A stretch of DNA of 26,133 bases from a virus, in IMG/VR virus record IMGVR_UViG_3300047453_000114, positions 1-26,133 of that record, one strand, 5' to 3'. A program made the position numbers and the translations under genes. How positions within the stretch are numbered: the stretch's first letter is position 1; every line of letters starts with the position of its first letter. Below the pieces are notes generated by a model. It worked only from the letters and a program-made list of their open reading frames with translations, was not told the DNA's origin and ran no database searches. Below, piece by piece: positions 5,425 through 26,133 of the stretch.

Positions 5425-8400
5425 TTACAAGCCTGCTATCTCACCAGTATTTTTCAAACGTAGTGGAATGTAAACAAACTCTACTGCTTTGACTGGTTCT
5501 ATCGCTATATCTAAGTAAAGCTCGTTACGATCAATTCTAGCTGGAGTGTTGTTGCTTTCGTCACATACAACTAAGAAGTCATATAATGCTCTTGCACCAA
5601 CTAACTCTAAACATAAGCTCTCTGCGGCCTGTTTGATCTGATCACGTGTGATCTTATCATTTGGTTCAAAGATATATGGTTTAGCTAATTTGTTTAACTG
5701 TCCACGTAAGTAAATTACCAAACGTGCTACGTTAATTCTATCTAATGAGCTTGCACCTCTTGCACGAGTCTTTTGACCATATGCAACTAAGCCTGCGCCG
5801 TTAATGAATGTAATTGGGTTAACGCTTACTGCATAAAGTGTATCACGTTGTCCTTCGTTTAATGCTATTGAATTAAATTCGCCTTCGTTATCAATAAACC
5901 CTGTTGCTGTAGCATTTGTAATGCCGCCACGTCTTGTACCTGCTGGTGCAAACCATGGATAGCTAACTTGGTCACTTAGCGCAATAGTTCTTAGCATCAT
6001 GTGACTTGGTGGAACAACTACATTGTTACCTGCGTTGTCGCTTGTAAAGCCCCATGGATAAAATACACCTAAGTATTCATCTCTGCTTACAAGTCCGTCA
6101 TCGTTATCTTCAACTGCTAATGCAACGTTCTGACCCCATTCATTTAATGAAGTAGCGTCTGATGTTAATCTTGCTGGTGAATCACCTACGATGAATGCAC
6201 TTAATCCTCTATCAAAGTTTAGTGAAACCATTTCACCAATTAGCTCTGGATAACCTGGAGTTGCCATCAAGTTAAAGATTCTTGATTCGTCATCTCTAAT
6301 GTCATCGTTACTATTCATTGTAGCCTGTAACTGTTGTACAACAACTTTACGCTGTGCTTTACGTCCAAAGCTACCTGAACCATCTTCTTGGTTAGCTGAC
6401 TCTGTTTGCCATCTGTGTGGATAGTAACTTGCCATTGATGCATCACCTGCTCTTGCGTTATCAGCAGTAACATCAATTGCGTTACGTACAAATTTCTTAA
6501 CGTTAAAGCCGCTTCTGCGTGTGTTCCAAAGTAGCATACCACGTGGGTAAAGTGCTGGATCTGGAGCATCTGGGTCTAAGTAGTCACTTGTTAATAAGTC
6601 TGTAATAGTACCTGTTGGAGCAACTGTTGTTGTTCCGCCTGTTGTACCATAACGTGCATCTGCAAACAATACACCATCTTCAGTAGTTTGATCTGATTTG
6701 TCAACTAACTGCCATTCTTGAGCACCATTGTTCCAACGGTAAATTGTTGGATAGTTTTCTAAGTCTGATGTGTCAACCCAAAGATCCTGATCTGCTGGAG
6801 TACTTGGTTGTGTTGCTGATACTGTTGTACCGTTACTTGAACCGTATAATGTTTTATAACCAACCCATGTTGTACCATTGTGTACCATCATGTCAACTTC
6901 GTCAATAACACTGCTGTACCATAATGTACCATCTGCTGTTGTGCTTGTTGGTGCGTTAGCTGATGCTACGTACACTTGTGAAGCACTTGATGTTACTGGC
7001 ATCCAGTTTGAAGCAACTAGTTCATTAGTTGAATCACCTGTTGGAGCGTCATATACGTTAGTTGCCGCGTTAGTTAAACCTACTAATGTAAGTGGGCTTG
7101 TACCTGAACCATTGTCAAGTCTAAAGTCGCCACCTAATTTGTGTTCAATTACAACTTTGTTAGTTGAATCTACTGAAGCAACAATATTAGTAAAGCCTGC
7201 GCTGTTAATACCGTCTGCCATTTCGTCGGCGTCAGTACTTGCACCTGTTGCAGTAAATGCTACTTCTCTTGCTGTTGCTAATGCCGCACTACCTACAACA
7301 CTTTCTGCTATTTTAAATGTATATGCAACTGCTGAAAGTTGAGTTGCTATTTCTGCAGTTTTAATTGTAGTTGCACCTGCCGCCGCTCTTTTAAATAATA
7401 CAAAATCACCTAATTTGCTTGATGCTTCTGTAAAGTTAGATTGTACGTACAATGCGTCTTTTGCTAAGTTAGCGCCGCCGCCTGCTTTATCTAATGCATA
7501 TAATGCACTTTGATTTGAAGCGTATATTGGTGCGTCTACTAAGTCCCAAAGTGCTGTGTCTGCATTGTAAGATTTTACTCTCCATCTTGCACCACTGTTT
7601 GGTTCTGTAGTTTTTAGCCATACACTTCCACTTGGACGAGCAACTTGACCTGAGCCTGTTGACTTCCATTGTGGAACACTTGTATGTGGATCAATTGCTA
7701 ATGCTGGAATATCAAAGTTTCCAACTGTAAAGCCTAATTTCTCTGCAAGTCCTGGAGAACCAGCACCTTCTGCAAGAGTAATTTGTGTGTCTACTGAACC
7801 ATCATTGTAAATTACTAATTGACTGTTAAGGTTTGCTACACTAACACCTGTACCTGAAAGTACTGTGTTACTGTTTGAAACTATATCATCTAATGAAGTA
7901 GCTGATCCACCGCTGGTCGCCGCTGTTAGTGTATAGTTAGAACCACCTATATCAAGTACTAAAGTATCGGAATCTAATAATGTTGTACCGCCTGTTACAA
8001 CAACTGATCCAGTTGCACTTGGTGTAGTTCCTGTCCATGTAGATGAACCAACTTGTACCCAGTTACCTGAAGTGTTTTTGTACCATACTCTGTAAATTGT
8101 TGATAAGCCAGCAGTTATAGCATAGTCGCCTATTGCGCCTACTGAACCTTTTGGTGTATATGGAGTTGAGCCGCTTGTTTTTGTTGCGTCTGTTATTACA
8201 ATAGGAGTTTTAACTGCAAAGCTCTGTCCGCCTGTTGTCGATGCTGCCGCACCATTCCATTCAAAAATACCAAATGCTGTTGATGCAGTATCTGTCCAAA
8301 GTGCGCCATCTGCTGGTGCACCGCTTGGGGCATCTGCTGTTGCTTGTAAAGCGCCTAAGTCAACATCTGCTCTTACAATAAATGCTCTGTTGCTTACACC

Positions 8401-8703
8401 TAATAATGAGTAAGCCGCTTGCAAACCATATTCGTTAAGTTCGCCTGCATGTATTGGATTGTTATTTGTATCAGTATAAAATACTGGGTCTCCAAATGTC
8501 TCTGTAAGGTCACGCTGTGATGTTAGTAAGTAAGGCTTACCTGCGTTTGCTTTCAGTGATCCTGGAGCAATACCCGTACCAGCGCCATTTGTTTTATTTG
8601 CGGCGGTGGCAACGAATATCATTGGTACTGTACCTGGTTCAGCGGGTGTGTAAAAACTTTCGTCTACTACGCTAACCTGTACTCCTGGTGATGTTAGTGC
8701 CAT
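5425..8703 (-). CDS. 18: Contractile tail sheath protein (gp18-like) with a large central insertion
   Basis: The sheath surrounds the tube and contracts at infection. Residues 1-118 (starting MALTSPGVQVSVVDES) and about 715-1092 (including RINVARLVIYLRGQLNKLAK and the ending LRLKNTGEIAGL) are typical of gp18. At 1092 residues it is much longer than T4 gp18 (659). The extra part, about residues 120-705, is a Thr/Ser/Ala/Gly-rich insertion with repeated modules of the form D-G-x-L-W ... W-x-x-V near 131-150, 358-388, 590-614 and 637-668, plus two further beta domains (about 235-330 and 455-550). The insertion would sit on the outer surface. AGGAG precedes the ATG, with a TAAATA box upstream. 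Confidence 0.9.
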   Translation of the reverse strand: MALTSPGVQVSVVDESFYTPAEPGTVPMIFVATAANKTNGAGTGIAPGSLKANAGKPYLLTSQRDLTETFGDPVFYTDTNNNPIHAGELNEYGLQAAYSLLGVSNRAFIVRADVDLGALQATADAPSGAPADGALWTDTASTAFGIFEWNGAAASTTGGQSFAVKTPIVITDATKTSGSTPYTPKGSVGAIGDYAITAGLSTIYRVWYKNTSGNWVQVGSSTWTGTTPSATGSVVVTGGTTLLDSDTLVLDIGGSNYTLTAATSGGSATSLDDIVSNSNTVLSGTGVSVANLNSQLVIYNDGSVDTQITLAEGAGSPGLAEKLGFTVGNFDIPALAIDPHTSVPQWKSTGSGQVARPSGSVWLKTTEPNSGARWRVKSYNADTALWDLVDAPIYASNQSALYALDKAGGGANLAKDALYVQSNFTEASSKLGDFVLFKRAAAGATTIKTAEIATQLSAVAYTFKIAESVVGSAALATAREVAFTATGASTDADEMADGINSAGFTNIVASVDSTNKVVIEHKLGGDFRLDNGSGTSPLTLVGLTNAATNVYDAPTGDSTNELVASNWMPVTSSASQVYVASANAPTSTTADGTLWYSSVIDEVDMMVHNGTTWVGYKTLYGSSNGTTVSATQPSTPADQDLWVDTSDLENYPTIYRWNNGAQEWQLVDKSDQTTEDGVLFADARYGTTGGTTTVAPTGTITDLLTSDYLDPDAPDPALYPRGMLLWNTRRSGFNVKKFVRNAIDVTADNARAGDASMASYYPHRWQTESANQEDGSGSFGRKAQRKVVVQQLQATMNSNDDIRDDESRIFNLMATPGYPELIGEMVSLNFDRGLSAFIVGDSPARLTSDATSLNEWGQNVALAVEDNDDGLVSRDEYLGVFYPWGFTSDNAGNNVVVPPSHMMLRTIALSDQVSYPWFAPAGTRRGGITNATATGFIDNEGEFNSIALNEGQRDTLYAVSVNPITFINGAGLVAYGQKTRARGASSLDRINVARLVIYLRGQLNKLAKPYIFEPNDKITRDQIKQAAESLCLELVGARALYDFLVVCDESNNTPARIDRNELYLDIAIEPVKAVEFVYIPLRLKNTGEIAGL

Positions 8704-13986: not shown

Positions 13987-14424
13987 ATGAACAAGATAAT
14001 TTGTAGTGGAGCACTATTCTATGCTCTTGACACTAAACGTTTTTTATTTTTACATAGAGCTGGTGGTAAGACTGCCGGTACTTGGGGACTTGTTGGCGGT
14101 GGTAGCGAAAACGGTGAAACACCATTTGAAGCCCTCAAAAGAGAGATTGCCGAAGAAGTAACTGAAACAACTCCTATTGTAAAAACTATTCCTTTAGAAA
14201 CTTTTGTATCTAATGATGCAAAGTTTAATTTTCATACATACCTTGTATGCTGTACAGGAGAGTTTATTCCTATTCTTAATCAAGAACACAGTGGGTATGC
14301 ATGGGTTGATTTTGGGTGTTGGCCAAAGACGTTACATCAAGGGCTACGTAATACACTACAAAATAAAACTAACCTTTCTAAATTAGAAACAGTATTTCAA
14401 GTTATAGATTTACTAGAGGAATAA
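13987..14424 (+). CDS. Nudix hydrolase
   Basis: Nudix enzymes cleave nucleoside diphosphate-linked compounds. The 145-residue protein has a nearly complete Nudix box: G38-x5-E44-x7-R52-E53-I-A-E56-E57, where the glutamates bind the catalytic metal. The glycine that usually follows two positions after EE is Thr. The preceding GTWGLVGGG is typical. The substrate cannot be read from sequence; an mRNA-cap, mutT-like or nucleotide-sugar role are all possible. It starts eight bases after the gp15-like stop and abuts the cupin gene, so it is in the neck operon. I see no good ribosome site, which suggests low or coupled translation. Confidence 0.85.
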   Translation: MNKIICSGALFYALDTKRFLFLHRAGGKTAGTWGLVGGGSENGETPFEALKREIAEEVTETTPIVKTIPLETFVSNDAKFNFHTYLVCCTGEFIPILNQEHSGYAWVDFGCWPKTLHQGLRNTLQNKTNLSKLETVFQVIDLLEE

Positions 14425-14799
14425 ATGACAGAAAATGTAAAACAAACATCCTATGGTTACGAAGCAACATGGGCTAAAACAGATTCATACTATAGTAAAA
14501 TTGTAGGCTTTAACAAACCTAATAAAACTAGTATGCACTTTCATAAAGTTAAAAATAAAAGTTGGTTTATTAATGATGGTAATTTTAAACTTAATTACAT
14601 TGATACTGCAACAGGCGCATTATTTGAATCAAATTTAAAAGAAGGACAAGTATTTAATATACCGGCACTTATGCCTGCAAGTATTGAATGTCTAAGTCCT
14701 AGTGGTAGTTTTACTGAAGTTGGCGACATTGACGATGATGCTGACATATATAACTTAACTCCAACAGGAGAAGAACTTGCGCACACTAGCACAGCATAA
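14425..14799 (+). CDS. Cupin-fold protein with degenerate metal site
   Basis: A 124-residue beta-rich protein resembling one cupin barrel: H38-F-H40 corresponds to the first cupin motif, followed by WFINDGNFKLNY, and EGQVFNIPALMPASIEC corresponds to the second. The glutamate expected after HxH and the histidine expected in motif two are absent, so a normal metal site is unlikely. Cupins of the phosphomannose-isomerase type are common in marine T4-like phages, where a structural or sugar-binding role has been assumed. Its ATG directly follows the Nudix stop, with AGAGGA inside the Nudix 3' end as ribosome site. Confidence 0.65.
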   Translation: MTENVKQTSYGYEATWAKTDSYYSKIVGFNKPNKTSMHFHKVKNKSWFINDGNFKLNYIDTATGALFESNLKEGQVFNIPALMPASIECLSPSGSFTEVGDIDDDADIYNLTPTGEELAHTSTA

Positions 14800-15031
14800 C
14801 GACTATGTAGAAGATATTCTGCGTTGGGAACAAGCAATTACACAAGTAACTAATTCAAAAGGAAAACTACATTGCGAACAGTTACTTGCAACTCTTAAAG
14901 ATAAAATAAAAAATATAGATACAGTACATTCGTCTAGTAGAGGACATGCTAAACTAGCTAATATTAATTCTCTTATTAAAGAAACTGTTGATCTAAGACG
15001 TGAGTTAAATAGTCTACTTAAATTTGACTAA
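14777..15031 (+). CDS. Small helical protein with TTG start
   Basis: An 84-residue, mostly helical protein of unknown function (YVEDILRWEQAITQV, then CEQLLATLKDKIKNIDTV, then IKETVDLRRELNSLLKF). The start is TTG at 14777, chosen because AGGAG lies six bases upstream, inside the end of the cupin gene, giving a 23-base overlap. The 3' end overlaps the converging fibre gene by 14 bases. Overlaps on both sides and the ribosome site support a real gene translated from the neck operon. Confidence 0.65.
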   Translation: MRTLAQHNDYVEDILRWEQAITQVTNSKGKLHCEQLLATLKDKIKNIDTVHSSSRGHAKLANINSLIKETVDLRRELNSLLKFD

Positions 15032-16664
15032 ATCTTTTTATTTGAATTGATCCAACCATAGCAGGGTGAGCAGTACACTGATATCTATAACCACCTGAAT
15101 AAGTTTCAGGTATTCTCCAATACAATACACCTTCTGATCTACCTTGTGCTAATGAGCCAGTAGTTTTATTACCATTAGTTTGTACATGGAAAATTTGTGT
15201 AGCATCTGTAATTGTAGTTCCTGTAGGATCTTGTATAGCAAATGGATGTCCTTGGGCTCCGTCTAATTTAAACGAAACTGTTGTACCTGACATTACATAT
15301 ATCGTTGGATTTTGTCCTGAATAGTGTGGAAAGAAATTATAAGACTGTGTACCTACATTACCAACTTGAAATTCTACTAATGTGTTTTCTGTAATCTTAT
15401 CAATAGTAGTACCTGTGTAGTTAATAAATGTACTACCAGTCCAACTTAATAACTGTCCTTTATTATCTAATGGTAAGTTACCAACCCAAGCAATAGTAAC
15501 ATCACTTAAATCGTTAATCTCAGTTGCGCCTGCCGCAGGTGGTGTATAAGTAAATGCTCCAGTAGTATTATCATACACAAGTGCGCCTGTACCGCTTGCC
15601 GCATTTGCTGTTACACTTAAATCTGTTAATGCAATACCGCCTGATCCTGCAGGAGATGTTGGTTCAAATCTACTGTTAGTATTGTTCCATGCTAACACTT
15701 CTCCGTTACCAACTCCAGTAAGATCAACATCACTAAGTGCGCCTACGCTAATAGCATTTAAGTCACTAGCAACTACAGTGTAGTCTGTAATATAACTGCC
15801 CAAGTCAGTAATTTGTGATTCTGTTACACTTAGTGCGGCTTGGTGTTGTGTAACACTTGATTGTGTAATATTTGCATCTGGTACATCGTCCCAAACAACT
15901 GCCGCTGATAAATCATTTACTTCTGCACTTAATGCTCCAATGCCGCCGGGCGTTGGTGGTGTATATCTAAACACACCTGTTGTATTATCATATTCAATAG
16001 CACCGTTACCGTCTGCTGTTCTTTCATTGCCTACACTAAAGTCTGATAGTGTAGCAACAGTTGGTGTATTGGTTAAGTTATTATAGTTTAAAAAGTAAGT
16101 ACTGTCAAATCCGTCAAAAGTATCTGCATCAGTACCGCCACCGCCTGTTGTAGAGTCAAAGCCTGGTGCCCATTGTGTGCCATCCCACTTTAATACTTGT
16201 CCAACTGCTGGTGCAGAAGTTGTTGTATCAACATCACTTAAAAAGTCAATACTGTGTGCATCTAAATCAATATGTAATTCGTTTGTATTAGTAGTAAGCT
16301 CTGTAGAAATATTTGTTCTACCTAAAATTTGTAAAGTAGCTTCTCCACTTGCTGTAAATGATCCGTCATCAGTAGTAACTGTTTTAATAACATCTGACGA
16401 GCCGCCTACTGCACTAGAATTAATAGTAAGTGTCTTTCCAACAATAGCAGTAGTTACGTTTGTTCCGCCAGCAACCGTTAATGCATCAGTTGTATTAGAT
16501 GCTGTTACTGTTCCTGTATCTGCATTAACTGTTGCAAACAAGTTTTGATCTGATGATGCCGCGCCTGCTTGTATGTTCCATACAGTGCCGTCATATACCC
16601 AGGTTACACTACCTTCAGTATAAGTATCGTCTGCATTAGGTGCGTCTGGAAAATTTAAAGCCAT
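15018..16664 (-). CDS. Repeat-rich fibre protein with C-terminal cupredoxin domain
   Basis: A 548-residue structural protein. The N-terminus has an FPDAPNADDTYTEGSVTW...VW attachment-like motif. Residues 140-420 contain repeats of two kinds: LSDV...GQVLKWDGTQWAPG (about 142-168, 310-334, 386-412) and SDF/TDLS...G-A-I/L-x-Y-DNTTG-x-F-x-YTPP (about 206-236, 347-376). These also occur in the 379-residue gene further upstream. Residues about 438-545 look like a cupredoxin: H473 in GHPFAI and C530-T-A-H533-P-A-M536 give the four type-1 copper ligands, with the C-x2-H-x2-M spacing of amicyanin. A late-type box and AAGGA precede the ATG. Location on the virion and copper binding are inferred. Confidence 0.8.
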   Translation of the reverse strand: MALNFPDAPNADDTYTEGSVTWVYDGTVWNIQAGAASSDQNLFATVNADTGTVTASNTTDALTVAGGTNVTTAIVGKTLTINSSAVGGSSDVIKTVTTDDGSFTASGEATLQILGRTNISTELTTNTNELHIDLDAHSIDFLSDVDTTTSAPAVGQVLKWDGTQWAPGFDSTTGGGGTDADTFDGFDSTYFLNYNNLTNTPTVATLSDFSVGNERTADGNGAIEYDNTTGVFRYTPPTPGGIGALSAEVNDLSAAVVWDDVPDANITQSSVTQHQAALSVTESQITDLGSYITDYTVVASDLNAISVGALSDVDLTGVGNGEVLAWNNTNSRFEPTSPAGSGGIALTDLSVTANAASGTGALVYDNTTGAFTYTPPAAGATEINDLSDVTIAWVGNLPLDNKGQLLSWTGSTFINYTGTTIDKITENTLVEFQVGNVGTQSYNFFPHYSGQNPTIYVMSGTTVSFKLDGAQGHPFAIQDPTGTTITDATQIFHVQTNGNKTTGSLAQGRSEGVLYWRIPETYSGGYRYQCTAHPAMVGSIQIKRFSQI

Positions 16665-16686: not shown

Positions 16687-16693
16687 TATTTAT
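16687..16693 (-). promoter_or_regulatory. Late-type promoter box overlapping the subtilase stop codon
   Basis: The minus strand reads ATAAATATTGTAAC. The TAA within TAAATA is the stop of the subtilase gene. AAGGATT and the ATG of the cupredoxin-bearing fibre gene follow at normal spacing. Confidence 0.5.
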
Positions 16694-18519
16694 GCAATAA
16701 TGTTCAGCCCTTCTCCTACTTGAAATCCGAATGAGTTGTTAACGTCTAGTTCTAATACAGTTCCTGTGTTAGCACTTACAGCAGATACAGTTGTTGTAGC
16801 GCCGCTTAGACGTCCTTGTATATTAAATGGTGTTGCTGGGTTGCTTGCAAGTACAGCGTTAACTTGAATAGCAATTCCTGATACAATACTAGATACTGCT
16901 ACATTTGTACCATTGTCATCTAGCCAAGCATTAGTTTCTAATTGAGGTCCGTCTTCATTTAACACTGCTAGTGAATTGGTAAAAGTCATAGATCCATTTG
17001 TTCTGTACGGACGTTCTACGCCGTATCTACTAAACATCATTCTATTAGGTGAACCTAAAATACTTCTAGTATTATCATAATCTGAATCATTATTTGCTGT
17101 TTCATAAACTACACTTTTACTAACACTAGTCATTAATGTAACTAATTGTTCTGGTGTTTGTAATGAATTTGCTTGTAAGTGTAATGCCGCTAGTCCTGCT
17201 ATCTGAGGTGCCGCCATTGACGTACCGCTTATTTTCATAATTTTGTAACTACTGTTATCTGGATAATCATAAGTTGTATATCCAGAATCAGCTTCGTTGC
17301 TTGATGCACTCATTATTTCAGTACCAGGTGCCCATATGTTTACACCAGGTCCTTTTTTACTAGAATTTGCTGATTGATCAGTACCGCCATTAGTAACATA
17401 ACTAATATTACCAACATTAAATGCTCTGTCAGAATACGGTGAACTGGGTCTATGATATAGTCTTGATATTCCGCTTACAGAAACAAAGTTATTCCAATCA
17501 GTGCCTGTTGAAACATCTGCTTTGTAACTATCATTGCCTGCGGCAATAACAACATGAATTCCAGCATCGATCATATCTTCAACTTCTGCATCAGCAAAAG
17601 CATTTTGTGCAGGGAATGTTCTGTTACCATCTCCGTTAGGTGTAACTATACCGTAGTCTGTAAATAACTCTGCATCAGTTTGTGTTGTAAATGTCCACGG
17701 AGTTCCTCTGTATGTTCCGCTTGAAGGATCAACAGTTGAAGTATTTCTATATCCCCAACTCATGTTTACTACAGTTGGTTTGCCGCTTACTTTATTATTG
17801 TGCCATAATCTAATACTATCAAATGCATCTGCAACAGGAATACCAGTACCATCAGTAGCACCTATTAACTCTAATCCTGCTAATTTTTGTGAATATATAG
17901 TTGCATGTTTTGCCCAACCATATGTTTTACCTGCGGCAATACCTGCACAGTGTGTACCGTGTCCATCTCTATCTCTATAGTGGTTTGCATTTTGTGTTCC
18001 TGCTATTCCACTTACTCCATACCAATCATGTTGTACTAGTCTAGTAACACCGTTTTCATCTTCCCATTCAGGGTGTCCTGGCTGTATACCGCTATCTTGT
18101 ATTACAATATCAACGCCAGCACCTGTTAATGTATAAAGGTAGTCTCCGGATATTGTTGTACTTGTACCATATTGATTTGTTGCATCTATACAACGCCTAA
18201 GTCCCCAATTAAGATCATTAGCACTGTTAAATGTTCCTCTCCAATAATTACCTGCTTGTCTAGAATTAAGACCTATTTCAATATCGTCTCTTTGATCAGG
18301 TGGTATCTCTACTGCTAGTATTCTTGGATCTGTTGATAATTCGTTTGCTTCTTCATCAGTAAGCATAAAATGTGTTATACGAGTTGAACCAATTCTAGGG
18401 TTAGCAACTTCTACGCTTCTGTTAGGTATTGGACCACTTCCTGTAGAAGCAATAATATCAGCTTCTACTTCGCTAATATTTTGATCACGTCTAACTATGA
18501 CTGCGTATTCTTTTTCCAT
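16690..18519 (-). CDS. Subtilisin-like serine protease (S8 family) with prodomain-like N-terminus
   Basis: The 609-residue product has all subtilase catalytic signatures: D142 in QDSGIQPGH, H187 in DGHGTHCAG, oxyanion N329 in IAAGND, and S434 in SGTSMAAPQ. Residues 1-75 (YAVIVRR..., then THFMLTDEEANELSTDPRILAVE) look like an I9-type inhibitor prodomain, so it may be made as a zymogen. There is no signal peptide; residues about 490-609 form an extra beta-rich domain. Its start overlaps the upstream fibre gene stop by one base (TAATG) and its stop lies in the next fibre gene's promoter, so it is made together with virion proteins. Likely tasks are fibre maturation or digestion of the host surface; neither is shown. 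Confidence 0.92.
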   Translation of the reverse strand: MEKEYAVIVRRDQNISEVEADIIASTGSGPIPNRSVEVANPRIGSTRITHFMLTDEEANELSTDPRILAVEIPPDQRDDIEIGLNSRQAGNYWRGTFNSANDLNWGLRRCIDATNQYGTSTTISGDYLYTLTGAGVDIVIQDSGIQPGHPEWEDENGVTRLVQHDWYGVSGIAGTQNANHYRDRDGHGTHCAGIAAGKTYGWAKHATIYSQKLAGLELIGATDGTGIPVADAFDSIRLWHNNKVSGKPTVVNMSWGYRNTSTVDPSSGTYRGTPWTFTTQTDAELFTDYGIVTPNGDGNRTFPAQNAFADAEVEDMIDAGIHVVIAAGNDSYKADVSTGTDWNNFVSVSGISRLYHRPSSPYSDRAFNVGNISYVTNGGTDQSANSSKKGPGVNIWAPGTEIMSASSNEADSGYTTYDYPDNSSYKIMKISGTSMAAPQIAGLAALHLQANSLQTPEQLVTLMTSVSKSVVYETANNDSDYDNTRSILGSPNRMMFSRYGVERPYRTNGSMTFTNSLAVLNEDGPQLETNAWLDDNGTNVAVSSIVSGIAIQVNAVLASNPATPFNIQGRLSGATTTVSAVSANTGTVLELDVNNSFGFQVGEGLNIIA

Positions 18520-19691: not shown

Positions 19692-20275
19692 GAAAGTGAA
19701 GTACGAGAGACACCTAATATCAAAACTCCGTTCCACCAGCCCTCAGCATTTTCAGGCTCTTCTTCAAGTATAAGGCGTTCAAATGATATGTTAAAACCCT
19801 GCTCTTTAATTGCAGATTTAGCTCCTTGAACGCTACCTTCAAAATTAGCATCATCTACTACTATTATAGCTTGATCAGCTAGTACTGTTGCATAGTACTT
19901 TATAGCATTAAACGTCATTTCCGGGCCATGAGGACCATCATAAAAGAAAATATCAATAGGATCAATTTGGTCAAGATCTACATCAAACAAGTCTGAATCA
20001 AATACTTTAATTTTGTTTTCACCTCTATAGTATTTGATATTTTTAACAAAGTCTTCTTTACTATTCTCTGGCAAAGGCGGTAAATCATCTCTTAAGGGTT
20101 GTACTTGTTCTTCCCAATGATCTACAAAGTATGCTTTTAATTTATTACCGTCTAGTGCGGCAGCCGCTGTTGCACCTAAATAGCATCCTACTTCTAAATA
20201 AGATTGGCCGCAACGACATAACTGATTTAGTAGCATTTGTACTTTATGACTTGTTAGTCCGTGTATGCGCCACAT
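19685..20275 (-). CDS. Class I SAM-dependent methyltransferase
   Basis: The 196-residue product has a Rossmann methyltransferase core: motif I YLEVGCYLG (26-34) binds S-adenosylmethionine, FVDHW (50-54) gives the acidic residue after strand 2, FYDGPHG (about 110-116) lies at strand 4, and a strand AIIVVDDAN follows. The pattern is that of small-molecule or sugar-modifying methyltransferases (Methyltransf_24-like) more than DNA methylases; no NPPY-type motif is seen. It overlaps the upstream U32-like gene by 22 bases, so the two are coupled. A substrate on a phage or host surface glycan, or a protein, is possible but unproven. Confidence 0.78.
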   Translation of the reverse strand: MWRIHGLTSHKVQMLLNQLCRCGQSYLEVGCYLGATAAAALDGNKLKAYFVDHWEEQVQPLRDDLPPLPENSKEDFVKNIKYYRGENKIKVFDSDLFDVDLDQIDPIDIFFYDGPHGPEMTFNAIKYYATVLADQAIIVVDDANFEGSVQGAKSAIKEQGFNISFERLILEEEPENAEGWWNGVLILGVSRTSLSK

Positions 20276-21312
20276 ATCGACTCCACTATTATATTTTTAA
20301 TTGTTATTTGAGGCTTGCCATTTTTTGCTTCATATAAGTTATCGCATTTATTGCAATCCCAACAATCAAACTTACAATTCTTAATAAATTCTCTCCATGC
20401 TTGGATGGGCTTACCTTCTAAATTTTTATCGTAAATGTATTCATCAAAATCAGAAAATAATATTTCTTCTTCTTTTGCAAACTTCTTAACAATATCCATT
20501 GTAGAAAATAATTGTGCTACACTTTCTCTGCCATGCATTTTAATAACATCAACATAGTATAACATCTCTTTCCAGTCTTGTCTCCAAGGCGGAATGTTTG
20601 CTGTTTTTAATGCTGTTACTGGTTCTGTAATATCCCACTTAGGACAACTTATACGACTAATAGCATCATTAAAATATTGTGGACCTGTTGACGTTCTTGA
20701 ATTATTAAATTCAAAATGTTCTGGCATTACAGGACAACTACCTACACAACCTTCGTTGCCTAGTATTGCTATCTTAACATTATACTTTTCTTTAACTTGT
20801 TTTATTTTTCTTAAAGTATCTCTATCACGTACTAGATCTCTATCAATATTAATGTAATTAAACCCTGCTTCTGCTTGTTTTGCAACATCGGCGGCAGTGT
20901 TTACTTCACGTAATATAGTATTCTTAATCATTAATTGCGGGAACTCTTTTTGTATTTGCCCTGTCATAACCCAATGTGTATGTGGGATAGTAGCAGATCT
21001 AATACCTTTATGGTGATATAAACTTTTAAAGTTTTCAATCCATAAATCTAAGTTCTTTTGATCAGGACGCACAAGAGTATTGTTAAATGTAGCAGACACT
21101 GGAATGCCTAACTTGTCTTGAATAATGAGTGAGTTTTCAATCAAGTCATTCGGGTCATTTACAAAAATATCTCCCATCGCATCCTGATCAAAAGGAGGTA
21201 TACGAGTAGTTATGTATACATCGTATATTAAACTTTTATGATCAATCAGAAACTGATAGAATTCTTCAAACTGTTTCCGGTCCAGTTTTGGATTCAGGGG
21301 TATGCTGAACAT
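20254..21312 (-). CDS. Peptidase U32-like, cysteine-rich protein (possible Fe-S protein)
   Basis: A 352-residue protein with an apparent TIM-barrel pattern: VYITTRIPP, then GIPVSATFNNTLVR, ATIPHTHWV, NTILREVNTAADVAKQAEAG, FNYINIDRDLVRDRDTL, and IAILGNEGCVGSCPVMPEHF. The last two blocks resemble the U32 peptidase family (UbiU/UbiV/RlhA relatives), several members of which bind a 4Fe-4S cluster and act in RNA or quinone hydroxylation. Cysteines are at 189, 193, 223, 313, 317, 320, 323 and 347; the group 313-323 reads C-x3-C-x2-C-x2-C. It overlaps the preceding gene by 47 bases and the methyltransferase by 22, a coupled set. Exact family and activity are uncertain; a radical-SAM-like role is less likely because that motif is normally N-terminal. 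Confidence 0.62.
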   Translation of the reverse strand: MFSIPLNPKLDRKQFEEFYQFLIDHKSLIYDVYITTRIPPFDQDAMGDIFVNDPNDLIENSLIIQDKLGIPVSATFNNTLVRPDQKNLDLWIENFKSLYHHKGIRSATIPHTHWVMTGQIQKEFPQLMIKNTILREVNTAADVAKQAEAGFNYINIDRDLVRDRDTLRKIKQVKEKYNVKIAILGNEGCVGSCPVMPEHFEFNNSRTSTGPQYFNDAISRISCPKWDITEPVTALKTANIPPWRQDWKEMLYYVDVIKMHGRESVAQLFSTMDIVKKFAKEEEILFSDFDEYIYDKNLEGKPIQAWREFIKNCKFDCWDCNKCDNLYEAKNGKPQITIKNIIVESICGAYTD

Positions 21313-23033: not shown

Positions 23034-24179
23034 TTAGAATCCTGCTCCCGCTATAACTGTGGCAGCTCCAGTGCTACATGCTCCTGAACTTTGACCGTAA
23101 TGCCCTTTAGGCATTGCCGCCGCTCCAAGCGTAGTCTGACTATCACTGCTATATGATTGTTTTACTGTATGATTGTTTTGTTGGCCATCATAATGACCCA
23201 TTACGTATCCCCAGTCCTGACCTTCCATGGAGTTTTCTTCTCCATAAGATCTAACCTTACTGAAGTTTGCTAATGTGGCGCCGTTTGCGTCACTAAATCT
23301 TGCAATACCTGATGTTACATTGTTACCTGTAAATGCGTAATGATGTCCCCATTTAGAACCTAAGTTCTTAGTTTGATAACTTGACTTACCGTAGTTACCA
23401 CCTTGGTCCCATCCGTTTACCCATGTTGTAGTTGACCAAGTTACATATTTGTATTGGTTACCGTTACCGTTAAAGTAACCGCGGTTTTCACCACTAACTG
23501 CATCACCACGTCCTGACATGCCTGAATCCCAACCAGTATACATAACTTCTGTTGGAAAGTGCATACGGTTAGTACTTGTATCGCCACCGCCTGATATCCA
23601 TCCGCTTTGGCCTTTCTGGTCTTCACATGCTAGTGCATCAACTCTGTTTACATTCATTTTCATACCACCTACGTGGTTACCAAAACCTGCTGTACCATAA
23701 CCTAGTCCTTGGTTTTTAGGATCGTTACCTACGTATCCATAACCAATACCAGATGATGAAAAACCATCCGATGTAAACATTCTAATTGATCCATTTGCTA
23801 GACTGTATGAACAAATTTGATCATGTGCATTATTGTAGCCGTTAGTTGAACAAATATATGCATGATAATCGCTCCAAAAGCCATTTGTATATGCACAATA
23901 GTTAGAAAGTTGTTCTCCACAATATACAGTAGTATCTGTATTATGCCATGTTTTGTTTACTGAACGCCACGGAGTTGAACCTTTATAACCACCTGCTAAG
24001 TATCCATGTGTAAATATAGATCTATATCTCCACTGAGCATTATCTAACCCTGTAAAGCCACTGCCCATATATCCCCAGCCAGCTCCTGTTGAACCGTCTG
24101 AAATAAGTTTAGCACCTGTATTTTCTGTAGTAGTTGCTGGTACTGGATTTACTTGATTTGCTCCTAAGAAAAACGCCAT
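23034..24179 (-). CDS. Tail fibre paralogue A
   Basis: A 381-residue member of a three-gene tandem family. The start is the MAFFLGANQ methionine, preceded by GGAGGAGGA; a longer in-frame version from 24221 would overlap the upstream gene and is rejected. Shared blocks, N to C: WGYMG, WRYRSI-THGYLAGGYKGS-PWRSVNKTW, YCGEQ, IRMFT-DGFSS, GYVGNDPKN, NHVGGM, RMHFPTEVMYTGWDSG, GENRGYF, YVTWS, KWGHHY, GNNVTSG, SKVRSYGEEN, GQDWGYVMGHYDGQQNNHT, and a C-terminal MPKGHYGQSSGAC. The Gly/Trp/Tyr-rich beta pattern suits a trimeric or propeller-like adhesin. Exact receptor and fold are unknown. Confidence 0.8.
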   Translation of the reverse strand: MAFFLGANQVNPVPATTTENTGAKLISDGSTGAGWGYMGSGFTGLDNAQWRYRSIFTHGYLAGGYKGSTPWRSVNKTWHNTDTTVYCGEQLSNYCAYTNGFWSDYHAYICSTNGYNNAHDQICSYSLANGSIRMFTSDGFSSSGIGYGYVGNDPKNQGLGYGTAGFGNHVGGMKMNVNRVDALACEDQKGQSGWISGGGDTSTNRMHFPTEVMYTGWDSGMSGRGDAVSGENRGYFNGNGNQYKYVTWSTTTWVNGWDQGGNYGKSSYQTKNLGSKWGHHYAFTGNNVTSGIARFSDANGATLANFSKVRSYGEENSMEGQDWGYVMGHYDGQQNNHTVKQSYSSDSQTTLGAAAMPKGHYGQSSGACSTGAATVIAGAGF

Positions 24180-25333
24180 TACATTCCTCCTCCAATAACC
24201 GTTGCCGACGCTGTTGAACACGCTCCGGAACTTTGTCCATAGTGTCCTTTAGGCATAGCGTTAGCGCCAAGTGTTACTTCTGAATCACTTGAGTGTGTTT
24301 GTTTAATAGTATGATTGTTTTGCTGTCCATCATAATGTCCCATGATGTAACCCCAATCTTGTCCGTCCATTGGATTGTCTTCGCCATAGGATCTAACTTT
24401 ACTAAAGTTTGCTAACGTAGCACCAGTTGCATCGCTAAAACGTGCTTTACCTGATGTAACATTATTTCCTGTACCAATGTAATGATGACCCCATTTTGTT
24501 GATTGTATTTTACAGTGGTTATCTTTACCCCAGCCGCCGCCTTGTGGCCAGTTAGTTGTCCAAGTGCTGTTACTCCAAGTTACATATTTGTAGTTAGTAC
24601 CACTCCATTGGAAATAACCGCGATTTTCGCCTGCGGCCGCTGTACCTCTTCCTGAGTTACCACTATCCCAACCAGTATACATAACCTCTGTTGGAAAATG
24701 CATACGGTGTGTTGTACTAGTACCGCCACCATTCATCCAACCACCTTGACCTTTAATGTCTTGTGTTCCTGCCGCATCAACTATTGATGTACTTAATCTC
24801 ATACCACCTACGTGATTTGTAAAACCACCACTACCGTATGTTAAGCCTTCATTCTTTGGATCGTTACCCTGGTAACCGTAACTTAGACCAGCTGATGAAA
24901 AACCATCTGCTGTAAACATACGTATAGTACCATTTGCTAATCCGTAACTTGCCATCCAATCGCCACCAGCGTTAAATGCTCTACCTGTAGGACCTGCTTG
25001 AATGTAACCATTATAGTCTGAATAAAAACCGTCACAGTATGATTGAGGTCCTGAAATTTGTTCTCCGCAATATAAAGTACTATCTGTTGCATGCCATGTT
25101 TTGTTTACTGAACGCCATGGGTTAGAACCTTTGTATCCTGCGGCCAAATAACCATGTGTGTATATGGATCTATATCTCCATGCTCCACCACCTTGTACAG
25201 AACCAGTTCCTGTGTAGCCCATATATCCCCAAAACGATCCATCTGAACCATTTGAAATAAGTTTTGCACCACGTGAACTATCAGTACCTTGAGGTACAAA
25301 TTCTAATTCTGTTGTCCCTGCAAAAAATGCCAT
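24179..25333 (-). CDS. Tail fibre paralogue B
   Basis: A 384-residue paralogue of A and C with the same ordered blocks from WGYMGYTG to MPKGHYGQSSGACSTA. It differs most in the first 15 residues after MAFF, in the YCGEQISGPQ region, and in the loop after GENRGYF. The start is MAFFAGTTE at 25333, which overlaps the stop of paralogue C by one base (TAATG); the stop overlaps paralogue A's ATG in the same way. An extended start at 25375 is rejected. The GACST cysteine near the end and the YCGEQ cysteine are kept in A and B. The variable loops are candidates for receptor contact. Confidence 0.8.
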   Translation of the reverse strand: MAFFAGTTELEFVPQGTDSSRGAKLISNGSDGSFWGYMGYTGTGSVQGGGAWRYRSIYTHGYLAAGYKGSNPWRSVNKTWHATDSTLYCGEQISGPQSYCDGFYSDYNGYIQAGPTGRAFNAGGDWMASYGLANGTIRMFTADGFSSAGLSYGYQGNDPKNEGLTYGSGGFTNHVGGMRLSTSIVDAAGTQDIKGQGGWMNGGGTSTTHRMHFPTEVMYTGWDSGNSGRGTAAAGENRGYFQWSGTNYKYVTWSNSTWTTNWPQGGGWGKDNHCKIQSTKWGHHYIGTGNNVTSGKARFSDATGATLANFSKVRSYGEDNPMDGQDWGYIMGHYDGQQNNHTIKQTHSSDSEVTLGANAMPKGHYGQSSGACSTASATVIGGGM

Positions 25334-26133
25334 TATCCTATACCCCCTAAAACACCTGCCGCGCCTGTTGCACATGCACCCGAACTCTGTCCATAATGCC
25401 CTTTAGGCATTGCGTTAGCACCAAGTGTTATTTCTGAATCACTGGAGTGTGTTTGTTTAATAGTGTGATTGTTTTGTTGACCGTCAAAGTGTCCCATAAT
25501 ATATCCGTGATCTTGACCGTCTTCTGAATTATCTTCTCCGTAACTTCTTACTTTGTTAAAGTTTGCTACAGTTGAACCTGTTGCATCACTAAATCTTGCC
25601 TTACCAGCTGTTACGTTGTTACCTGTACCAATATAATGGTGTCCCCATTTTGTTGATTGTATTTTACAATGTCTATCTTTTGAATATCCGCCCCATGATC
25701 CTGTTCCTGACCATGTTGAGTTTGCCCATGTTACATATCTATATGTAGATGTCCAAGCAAAGTATCCTCTATTTTCTCCGTGTCCGCCACAGCCGTATCC
25801 ATCTGTACCTGAATTCCATCCACTGTACATAACTTCTGTTGGAAAGTGCATACGTGATGTATCTGAACTACCGCCGCCGTTAATCCAACCACTTTGTCCT
25901 TTAATATCATTTGCCGCAGGAAAGTCATAACGGTTAACGTGCATTCTCATACCACCTACGTGGTTACCATATCCTGTTGTACCATAACCTAGTCCTTCGT
26001 TCTTTGGATCATTTCCTACATAGCCGTAACTAACACCACTAGATGAAAAACCATCTGCTGTAAACATTCTAATTGAACCGTTTGCTAAACTATAACTTGA
26101 TATTGCTGAACTAGTACCACTAAAGCCGCCACC
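25333..26133 (-). CDS. Tail fibre paralogue C, C-terminal part, cut by window edge
   Basis: The reading frame stays open to the right edge, giving 266 residues of the C-terminal part; the N-terminus lies outside. The internal methionine at 26067 is not the start: the codons above it read ANGSIRMFTADGF, matching the middle of paralogues A and B. The same blocks follow (GYVGNDPKNEG, RMHFPTEVMYSGW, KWGHHYIGTGNNVT, GHFDGQQNNHT, MPKGHYGQSSGACAT). It is closer to B than to A over much of its length (for example HCKIQSTKWGHHYIGTGNNV in both). Confidence 0.8.
   Translation of the reverse strand, partial: GGGFSGTSSAISSYSLANGSIRMFTADGFSSSGVSYGYVGNDPKNEGLGYGTTGYGNHVGGMRMHVNRYDFPAANDIKGQSGWINGGGSSDTSRMHFPTEVMYSGWNSGTDGYGCGGHGENRGYFAWTSTYRYVTWANSTWSGTGSWGGYSKDRHCKIQSTKWGHHYIGTGNNVTAGKARFSDATGSTVANFNKVRSYGEDNSEDGQDHGYIMGHFDGQQNNHTIKQTHSSDSEITLGANAMPKGHYGQSSGACATGAAGVLGGIG

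Follow-up and report, generated by a model that had tools for sequence, protein, structure and literature searches.

Structure modeling and profile comparisons showed that the last ~115 residues of a viral adsorption-apparatus protein form a predicted cupredoxin domain with a complete set of candidate type-1 copper ligands. The protein is encoded in the window, the whole 26,133-base stretch of an uncultured virus that we analyzed, by a minus-strand ORF that starts at an ATG, spans positions 15018..16664 and yields a tail fiber or baseplate-connector-like product of 548 residues. The domain occupies residues 429-543 (15036..15380, minus strand). Counts across homologs showed that its ligands are conserved jointly, and database searches showed that the module is spread well beyond this virus.

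An AlphaFold2 model of residues 419-548, built from an alignment of 28 domains (A1), had a mean pLDDT of 91.4 and a pTM of 0.84, with strands spanning residues 429 to 543. All 50 listed Foldseek matches in the PDB were cupredoxins or cupredoxin-domain enzymes, the best being copper nitrite reductase (E 3.2e-5) and rusticyanin (7.1e-5), with two-domain laccases and amicyanin also present, at TM-scores on the query of just about 0.4-0.5 and large rmsd values. VIA-align paired the model with the nitrite reductase (NirK) of Geobacillus (Z 10.7, rmsd 2.4, 108 residues aligned), with the three-domain NirK 2dv6 (Z 10.0, rmsd 2.2, 95 aligned, 21% identity) and with two-domain laccases (Z about 10). 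The predicted fold thus matches the cupredoxin sandwich, with Z up to 10.7, and the C-terminal cupredoxin proposed by the sequence-only reading was borne out by both the model and its solved counterparts. That reading had allotted ~105 residues (15018-15350) to the domain; the C-terminal location stood, and the extent was slightly short of the modeled strands.

Profile searches gave a concordant picture. The A1 profile matched the PDB sequences of copper nitrite reductase (1.2e-7), plastocyanin (8.5e-6) and amicyanin (1.9e-5), and it also reached pseudoazurin and rusticyanin. The window sequence alone remained below significance (Pfam Copper-bind E 0.084; best PDB phmmer E 0.066) and missed the PF00127 Copper-bind gathering cut-off of 21.2 bits, with 13.7 bits for the whole protein and 17.5 for the domain alone. 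As single-sequence searches were weak, the significant cupredoxin matches came solely from family profiles. PF00127 matched 18/28 rows of A1 at E ≤ 0.1, and its cut-off was passed, with 25.2 bits, by a relative on a Flavobacteriaceae contig (locus L134). The rows of A1 were picked by hand and degenerate copies were omitted, and its “invariant” columns are no fair count of conservation.

The candidate ligands were read directly from the minus-strand codons, which placed all four exactly where they had been claimed: H473 in GHPFAI (CAT, 15246..15248), C530 (TGT, 15075..15077), H533 (CAC, 15066..15068) and the candidate axial ligand M536 (ATG, 15057..15059). The candidate H/C/H/M set is complete, and the C-x2-H-x2-M spacing is indeed that of the amicyanin loop. 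In 5/5 printed profile alignments, C530, H533 and M536 align on the copper loops of NirK, plastocyanin and amicyanin. For H473 these alignments disagreed. Four of the five put Pro474 on the Pro preceding the ligand His, leaving H473 two residues short, and a His-on-His alignment was obtained among the five solely with P52G amicyanin (2gb2). By ungapped count, H473 lies 13 residues past a conserved Gly, a spacing identical in amicyanin and plastocyanin, and the Gly-to-His distance is 12 to 15 in 116/120 other copies counted. Because this count offsets the disagreeing alignments, we read H473 as the probable equivalent of the first ligand His. The residue that follows this His is Pro in 123/125 copies (Pro474 here) and Asn in 2/125. 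Plastocyanin and amicyanin have Asn directly past the first ligand His in the aligned rows, in keeping with their family rule; this mark is absent from the window domain, and with Pro474 in its place we did not file the domain in either subfamily.

To avoid circularity, we determined conservation with a profile in which the four ligand columns were masked, and we searched the ORFs of all fetched loci. This search yielded 117/136 copies with HCHM, 3/136 with HCHQ and 16 with a ligand changed or a residue unaligned. The 136 also contain the same domain from truncated ORFs, together with partial matches, some with E values of 0.2 to 2.3. A single LCHM copy probably carries its His two residues further on. 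Clustering at 70% identity gave 44/52 clusters with HCHM and 2/52 with HCHQ, and clustering at 50% gave 19/25 and 1/25, respectively; these HCHM fractions lean upwards, since the loci had been fetched partly with Cys/His-motif patterns (1/6 in one search, the sole pattern in others). The six other clusters at 70% read HSSV, ACHM, HC--, A---, ESNY and H---. Among residues present in the 52 clusters, conservation of the ligand columns was 94% for the first His, 96% for Cys, 96% for the second His and 92% for Met, whereas the median over 101 columns was 43% and cluster pairs shared a median of 32% identity. Outside the ligands, five columns (two Tyr, two Gly and one Pro) were equally strict, at 94-98%. 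Thus, H, C, H and M are conserved together, as the earlier reading required, and most homologs retain rather than lose them.

A less biased sample came from searching the whole genomes of 21 named phages with the A1 profile, which itself carries the ligands. The domain was found in 13/21. All 15 full copies that were printed for the 13 phages read HCHM, weaker matches in the whole-genome searches having been read for ligands in part. In cyanophage syn9, the next gene holds one domain copy that shows H, C, H and M and another that does not.

Copies that lost ligands (HSSV, ESNY, ACHM, HC-- and others) indicate that the fold can serve without a metal site. Some blue copper proteins use Gln as their axial ligand. 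A model of the Gln-type copies (alignment A2, four rows) had a pLDDT of only 72. Its top Foldseek match was the cupredoxin AcoP at E 1.3e-3, with unrelated chains also among the matches and none reaching E 0.001; its best Z of 7.7 was graded middling, and the A2 profile matched no solved structure at E ≤ 1. The reading of these copies as putative Gln-axial copper sites thus leans chiefly on where the ligands lie and less on the fold. As a separate observation, a 722-residue ORF at position 1383 of another fetched locus (L043) contains two cupredoxin-like domains, one of them Gln-type, and a YHYH domain (PF14240).

C530 is the sole Cys of the 548-residue protein, compared with 4.4 expected from the 25 window ORFs counted (66 Cys in 8183 residues). 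Among the other window ORFs, 5 of the 25 counted are devoid of Cys, three of these five being tail-type by PHROG, so Cys poverty is not special by itself; the retention of exactly the ligand Cys is notable. Similarly, 15/41 HCHM cluster representatives of at least 300 residues have exactly one Cys, the ligand, and the other 26/41 have more than one.

PHROG 677, the “baseplate wedge tail fiber protein connector” family, matched the protein that carries the domain at E 1.6e-43; the best stretch pairs residues 303-545 with profile positions 177-411 of 412 and includes the cupredoxin domain. The protein also matched PHROGs 9729 and 9627. The cupredoxin domain is thus part of the stretch common to the window protein and the cyanophage gp9-gp10 connectors, and the PHROG 677 family name makes no mention of copper or cupredoxin. 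No T4 gp10-type N-terminal anchor was detected in the window protein: its fiber region, residues 1-421 (15402..16664, minus strand), had no PDB sequence match at E ≤ 1 in phmmer searches, which also left it without a detected T4 gp9 anchor. By contrast, the beginning of the syn9 homolog corresponds to the N-terminal part of T4 gp10 (E 1.6e-7). Of 51 cluster representatives, some with ORFs cut by contig ends, 18 carry the domain at the C-terminus, 20 internally and 13 in the N-terminal third. The domain had been described as the tip of a fiber. Its nearest named relatives are gp9/gp10-type connectors, its position varies among the 51 representatives, and the syn9 relative opens with a T4 gp10-type anchor; we therefore dropped the fiber tip as a general statement.

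The domain-bearing protein SSCSM1_231 of phage S-SCSM1 is annotated “(virion protein)” in its record. For this phage, 45 virion proteins identified by mass spectrometry are reported in passages of PMC9602691, and the record annotation makes SSCSM1_231 a probable member of that set. We also considered a host-derived plastocyanin gene (petE). This candidate was rejected because the domain lies inside long structural ORFs, whereas petE is listed as a separate gene of cyanophages in passages of PMC3037559.

The domain is far from confined to this one fiber protein. A tblastn search of 50,697 phage records with the domain returned 224 records at E ≤ 1e-3, of which 223 are named Synechococcus, Cyanophage or Prochlorococcus and one “Marine”. 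The usual names among the 60 matches listed were baseplate wedge tail fiber connector, baseplate wedge subunit and tail pin, and gp9. The actinobacterial lake phage DSL-LC01 gave a tblastn match at E ≤ 1, and its domain was confirmed by whole-record profile search. That search found the domain at E ≤ 0.01 in 20/28 records; those with no match were T4, KVP40, HTVC008M, phiM12, Atu_ph07, Phosso, PA5oct and S-PM2. Viral structure models with a cupredoxin fold include cyanophage connectors, one proximal tail fiber and S8 peptidases. Together, these computations showed a large family of cupredoxin modules that reside in adsorption-apparatus proteins (gp9/gp10-type connectors, tail fibers and subtilases of the fiber locus), for the most part in marine T4-like phages. 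The domain also occurs on nine MAG contigs. In two contigs titled Flavobacteriaceae (L134:1704-5240 and L131:3300-5243), large repeat proteins have the domain at their end, preceded by DUF285 and other surface-type repeats.

Directly upstream of the fiber gene lies a subtilase (S8) gene (16690..18519, minus strand), identified by PF00082 (E 7.5e-30), the DSG, HGTH and GTSMA motifs and a match to PHROG 9158. The sequence-only reading had made no mention of this neighbor, which is linked to the cupredoxin domain in other phages. The end of the PHROG 9158 profile (positions 589-695 of 696) matches the same cupredoxin domain, whereas protease and cupredoxin are two adjacent genes in the window. 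A subtilase-cupredoxin fusion is present in six ORFs of the fetched loci, two of them nearly identical. When the 46 HCHM/HCHQ clusters were sorted by their relation to a subtilase, in a count in which one ORF of locus L117 and one of P-SSM2 each enter as two clusters, five were fused, 10 adjacent, four in the same locus and 27 neither; for the 32 clusters with at least 1,500 bases upstream, the corresponding numbers were four, nine, four and 15. A subtilase match was present in 9/20 whole records with the cupredoxin and in 2/8 without a cupredoxin match at E ≤ 0.01. In 8/9 of the former, the two lie less than 2 kb apart, and in S-SCSM1 the distance is 7.4 kb. The computed link between subtilase and module is thus partial. 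It suggests that protease and cupredoxin module work in one tail part; alternatively, both may simply belong to the fiber locus. Subtilase matches were also seen in the jumbo phages Atu_ph07 and Phosso, which had no cupredoxin match.

The domain has the fold and ligand order of amicyanin, plastocyanin and rusticyanin. Unlike these free carriers, it is part of a structural protein, and its copper site is predicted. Copper nitrite reductase is its top match by both fold and profile, with two-domain laccases close in fold. In contrast to these enzymes, the phage protein has a single cupredoxin domain, and no enzyme domain was recognized in it. Metal sites in phage fibers have been reported or proposed for the HxH motifs of T4 gp37 and alterophage R22Y, according to passages of PMC11705849. 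Those are His sites for iron in trimeric fibers, whereas the window protein has a predicted folded domain of the type-1 copper type.

With moderate confidence, we propose that the domain binds copper at a type-1 site and serves the adsorption apparatus as a docking or assembly module. From ligands, fold and conservation, we infer copper binding, the identity of the metal and the role of the module. The site, with H473, C530 and H533 as equatorial ligands and M536 as the axial one, would bind a single copper ion picked up from the lysate or from seawater. The bound copper would stiffen the ligand-loop end of the domain, and the stiffened end could serve as a docking surface for a partner protein in the baseplate or fiber network, or for the host surface. 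The joint retention of the ligands over great sequence divergence, the Met-to-Gln replacements in some copies and the lone ligand Cys in part of the family argue that selection maintains a metal site. That the domain occurs in such varied host proteins and positions points to a binding or assembly role rather than to a fixed electron path, and electron transfer is probably not the main task of the domain. We prefer docking to a redox function for one reason, namely that no redox partner was seen nearby.

The copper site itself could be illusory, in that the domain might be a rigid beta-sandwich that is metal-free or holds another metal such as Zn, its ligands persisting for packing or by recent descent. 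Such a domain would be consistent with the copies that keep the domain signature after losing at least two ligands (HSSV and ESNY), with the presence of the module in varied virion proteins and with the five non-ligand columns that equal the ligands in conservation. The scarcity of free copper in seawater and in the host cytosol would also favor a sandwich without copper. Recent descent fits poorly with a median identity of 32% next to ligand columns at 92-96%. Moreover, the axial Met is nearly as strict as Cys and His and changes mostly to Gln in full copies, and the ligand Cys is the sole Cys of 15/41 representatives. We consider this explanation unlikely, albeit one to be taken seriously. 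That the resemblance arose by chance, from an Ig-like domain that merely happens to contain H, C, H and M, has a negligible probability: although the window sequence alone falls below significance in Pfam and PDB searches, the profile and fold matches and the family-wide joint conservation of the ligands contradict it.

Two other explanations accept the copper and differ from docking in its use. A redox-active blue-copper site could exchange electrons with a surface or periplasmic protein of the host, or sense redox state or copper, and thereby gate adsorption or the neighboring protease. The complete type-1 ligand set with its amicyanin-like loop, the many electron-transfer domains among the closest folds and the fusion or adjacency to a subtilase in 15/46 clusters are in line with such a function. 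Among the window ORFs scanned, however, no electron donor or acceptor was recognized, the domain also sits inside long fiber-type proteins, and nothing indicates redox control of the subtilase; we thus regard a redox role as quite improbable. The copper might instead be a bait, a “cuprojan horse” by which a copper-loaded domain mimics a host cupredoxin and binds an outer-membrane copper-uptake receptor. Precedents exist for the cupredoxin-receptor pair, as azurin binds OprC, a TonB-dependent copper transporter (passages of PMC6907878), and for a metal bait, as the iron Trojan or Ferrojan horse idea has been advanced for marine phage fibers (passages of PMC11705849). Nevertheless, no host or receptor is known for the window virus, and the module is often found in baseplate connectors or inside fiber-type proteins rather than in identified receptor-binding tips, making a bait very doubtful. 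A more general version, in which marine T4-like phages including cyanophages would unlock the host surface in a copper- or redox-dependent way with a copper-loaded virion domain that often neighbors a protease (as a copper-receptor bait or a trigger), appears improbable to us.

Cupredoxins and the PHROG families are already known, and what appears new is that a structural protein of the adsorption apparatus of phages carries a set of type-1 copper ligands. Among the matches listed in an open-access literature search, we found no paper on cupredoxins in phage tails, and in the same literature none linking cyanophage, subtilase and tail fiber. Should the site bind copper, common marine phages would carry a blue-copper site on the virion, copper would join the iron story of phage tails with a bearing on marine copper chemistry, and the study of cyanophage adsorption would gain a handle. 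Even without copper, the analysis provides a fold and a family name for a module annotated either as “baseplate wedge tail fiber connector” or as “hypothetical”, and it links this module to the subtilase of the fiber locus.

Other genes of the window virus show mosaic affinities, jumbo-phage-like for the sheath and cyanophage-like for a PHROG 1458 protein. The 1092-residue sheath protein (5425-8703, minus strand) is nearest to those of Phosso, Atu_ph07 and PA5oct, which are rhizobial and Pseudomonas jumbo phages, with 46-49% identity over 62-72% of its length. The PHROG 1458 protein (20254-21312, minus strand) is nearest to that of cyanophage S-CAM4 (52%). Three neighboring minus-strand ORFs (23034-24221, 24179-25375 and 25333-26067) all match PHROG 1417, a family of unknown function. 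Adjoining the tail genes on the plus strand, a cysteine-dioxygenase-like gene (14425-14799, PHROG 7851) lies beside a NUDIX hydrolase gene (13987-14424, PHROG 1198).
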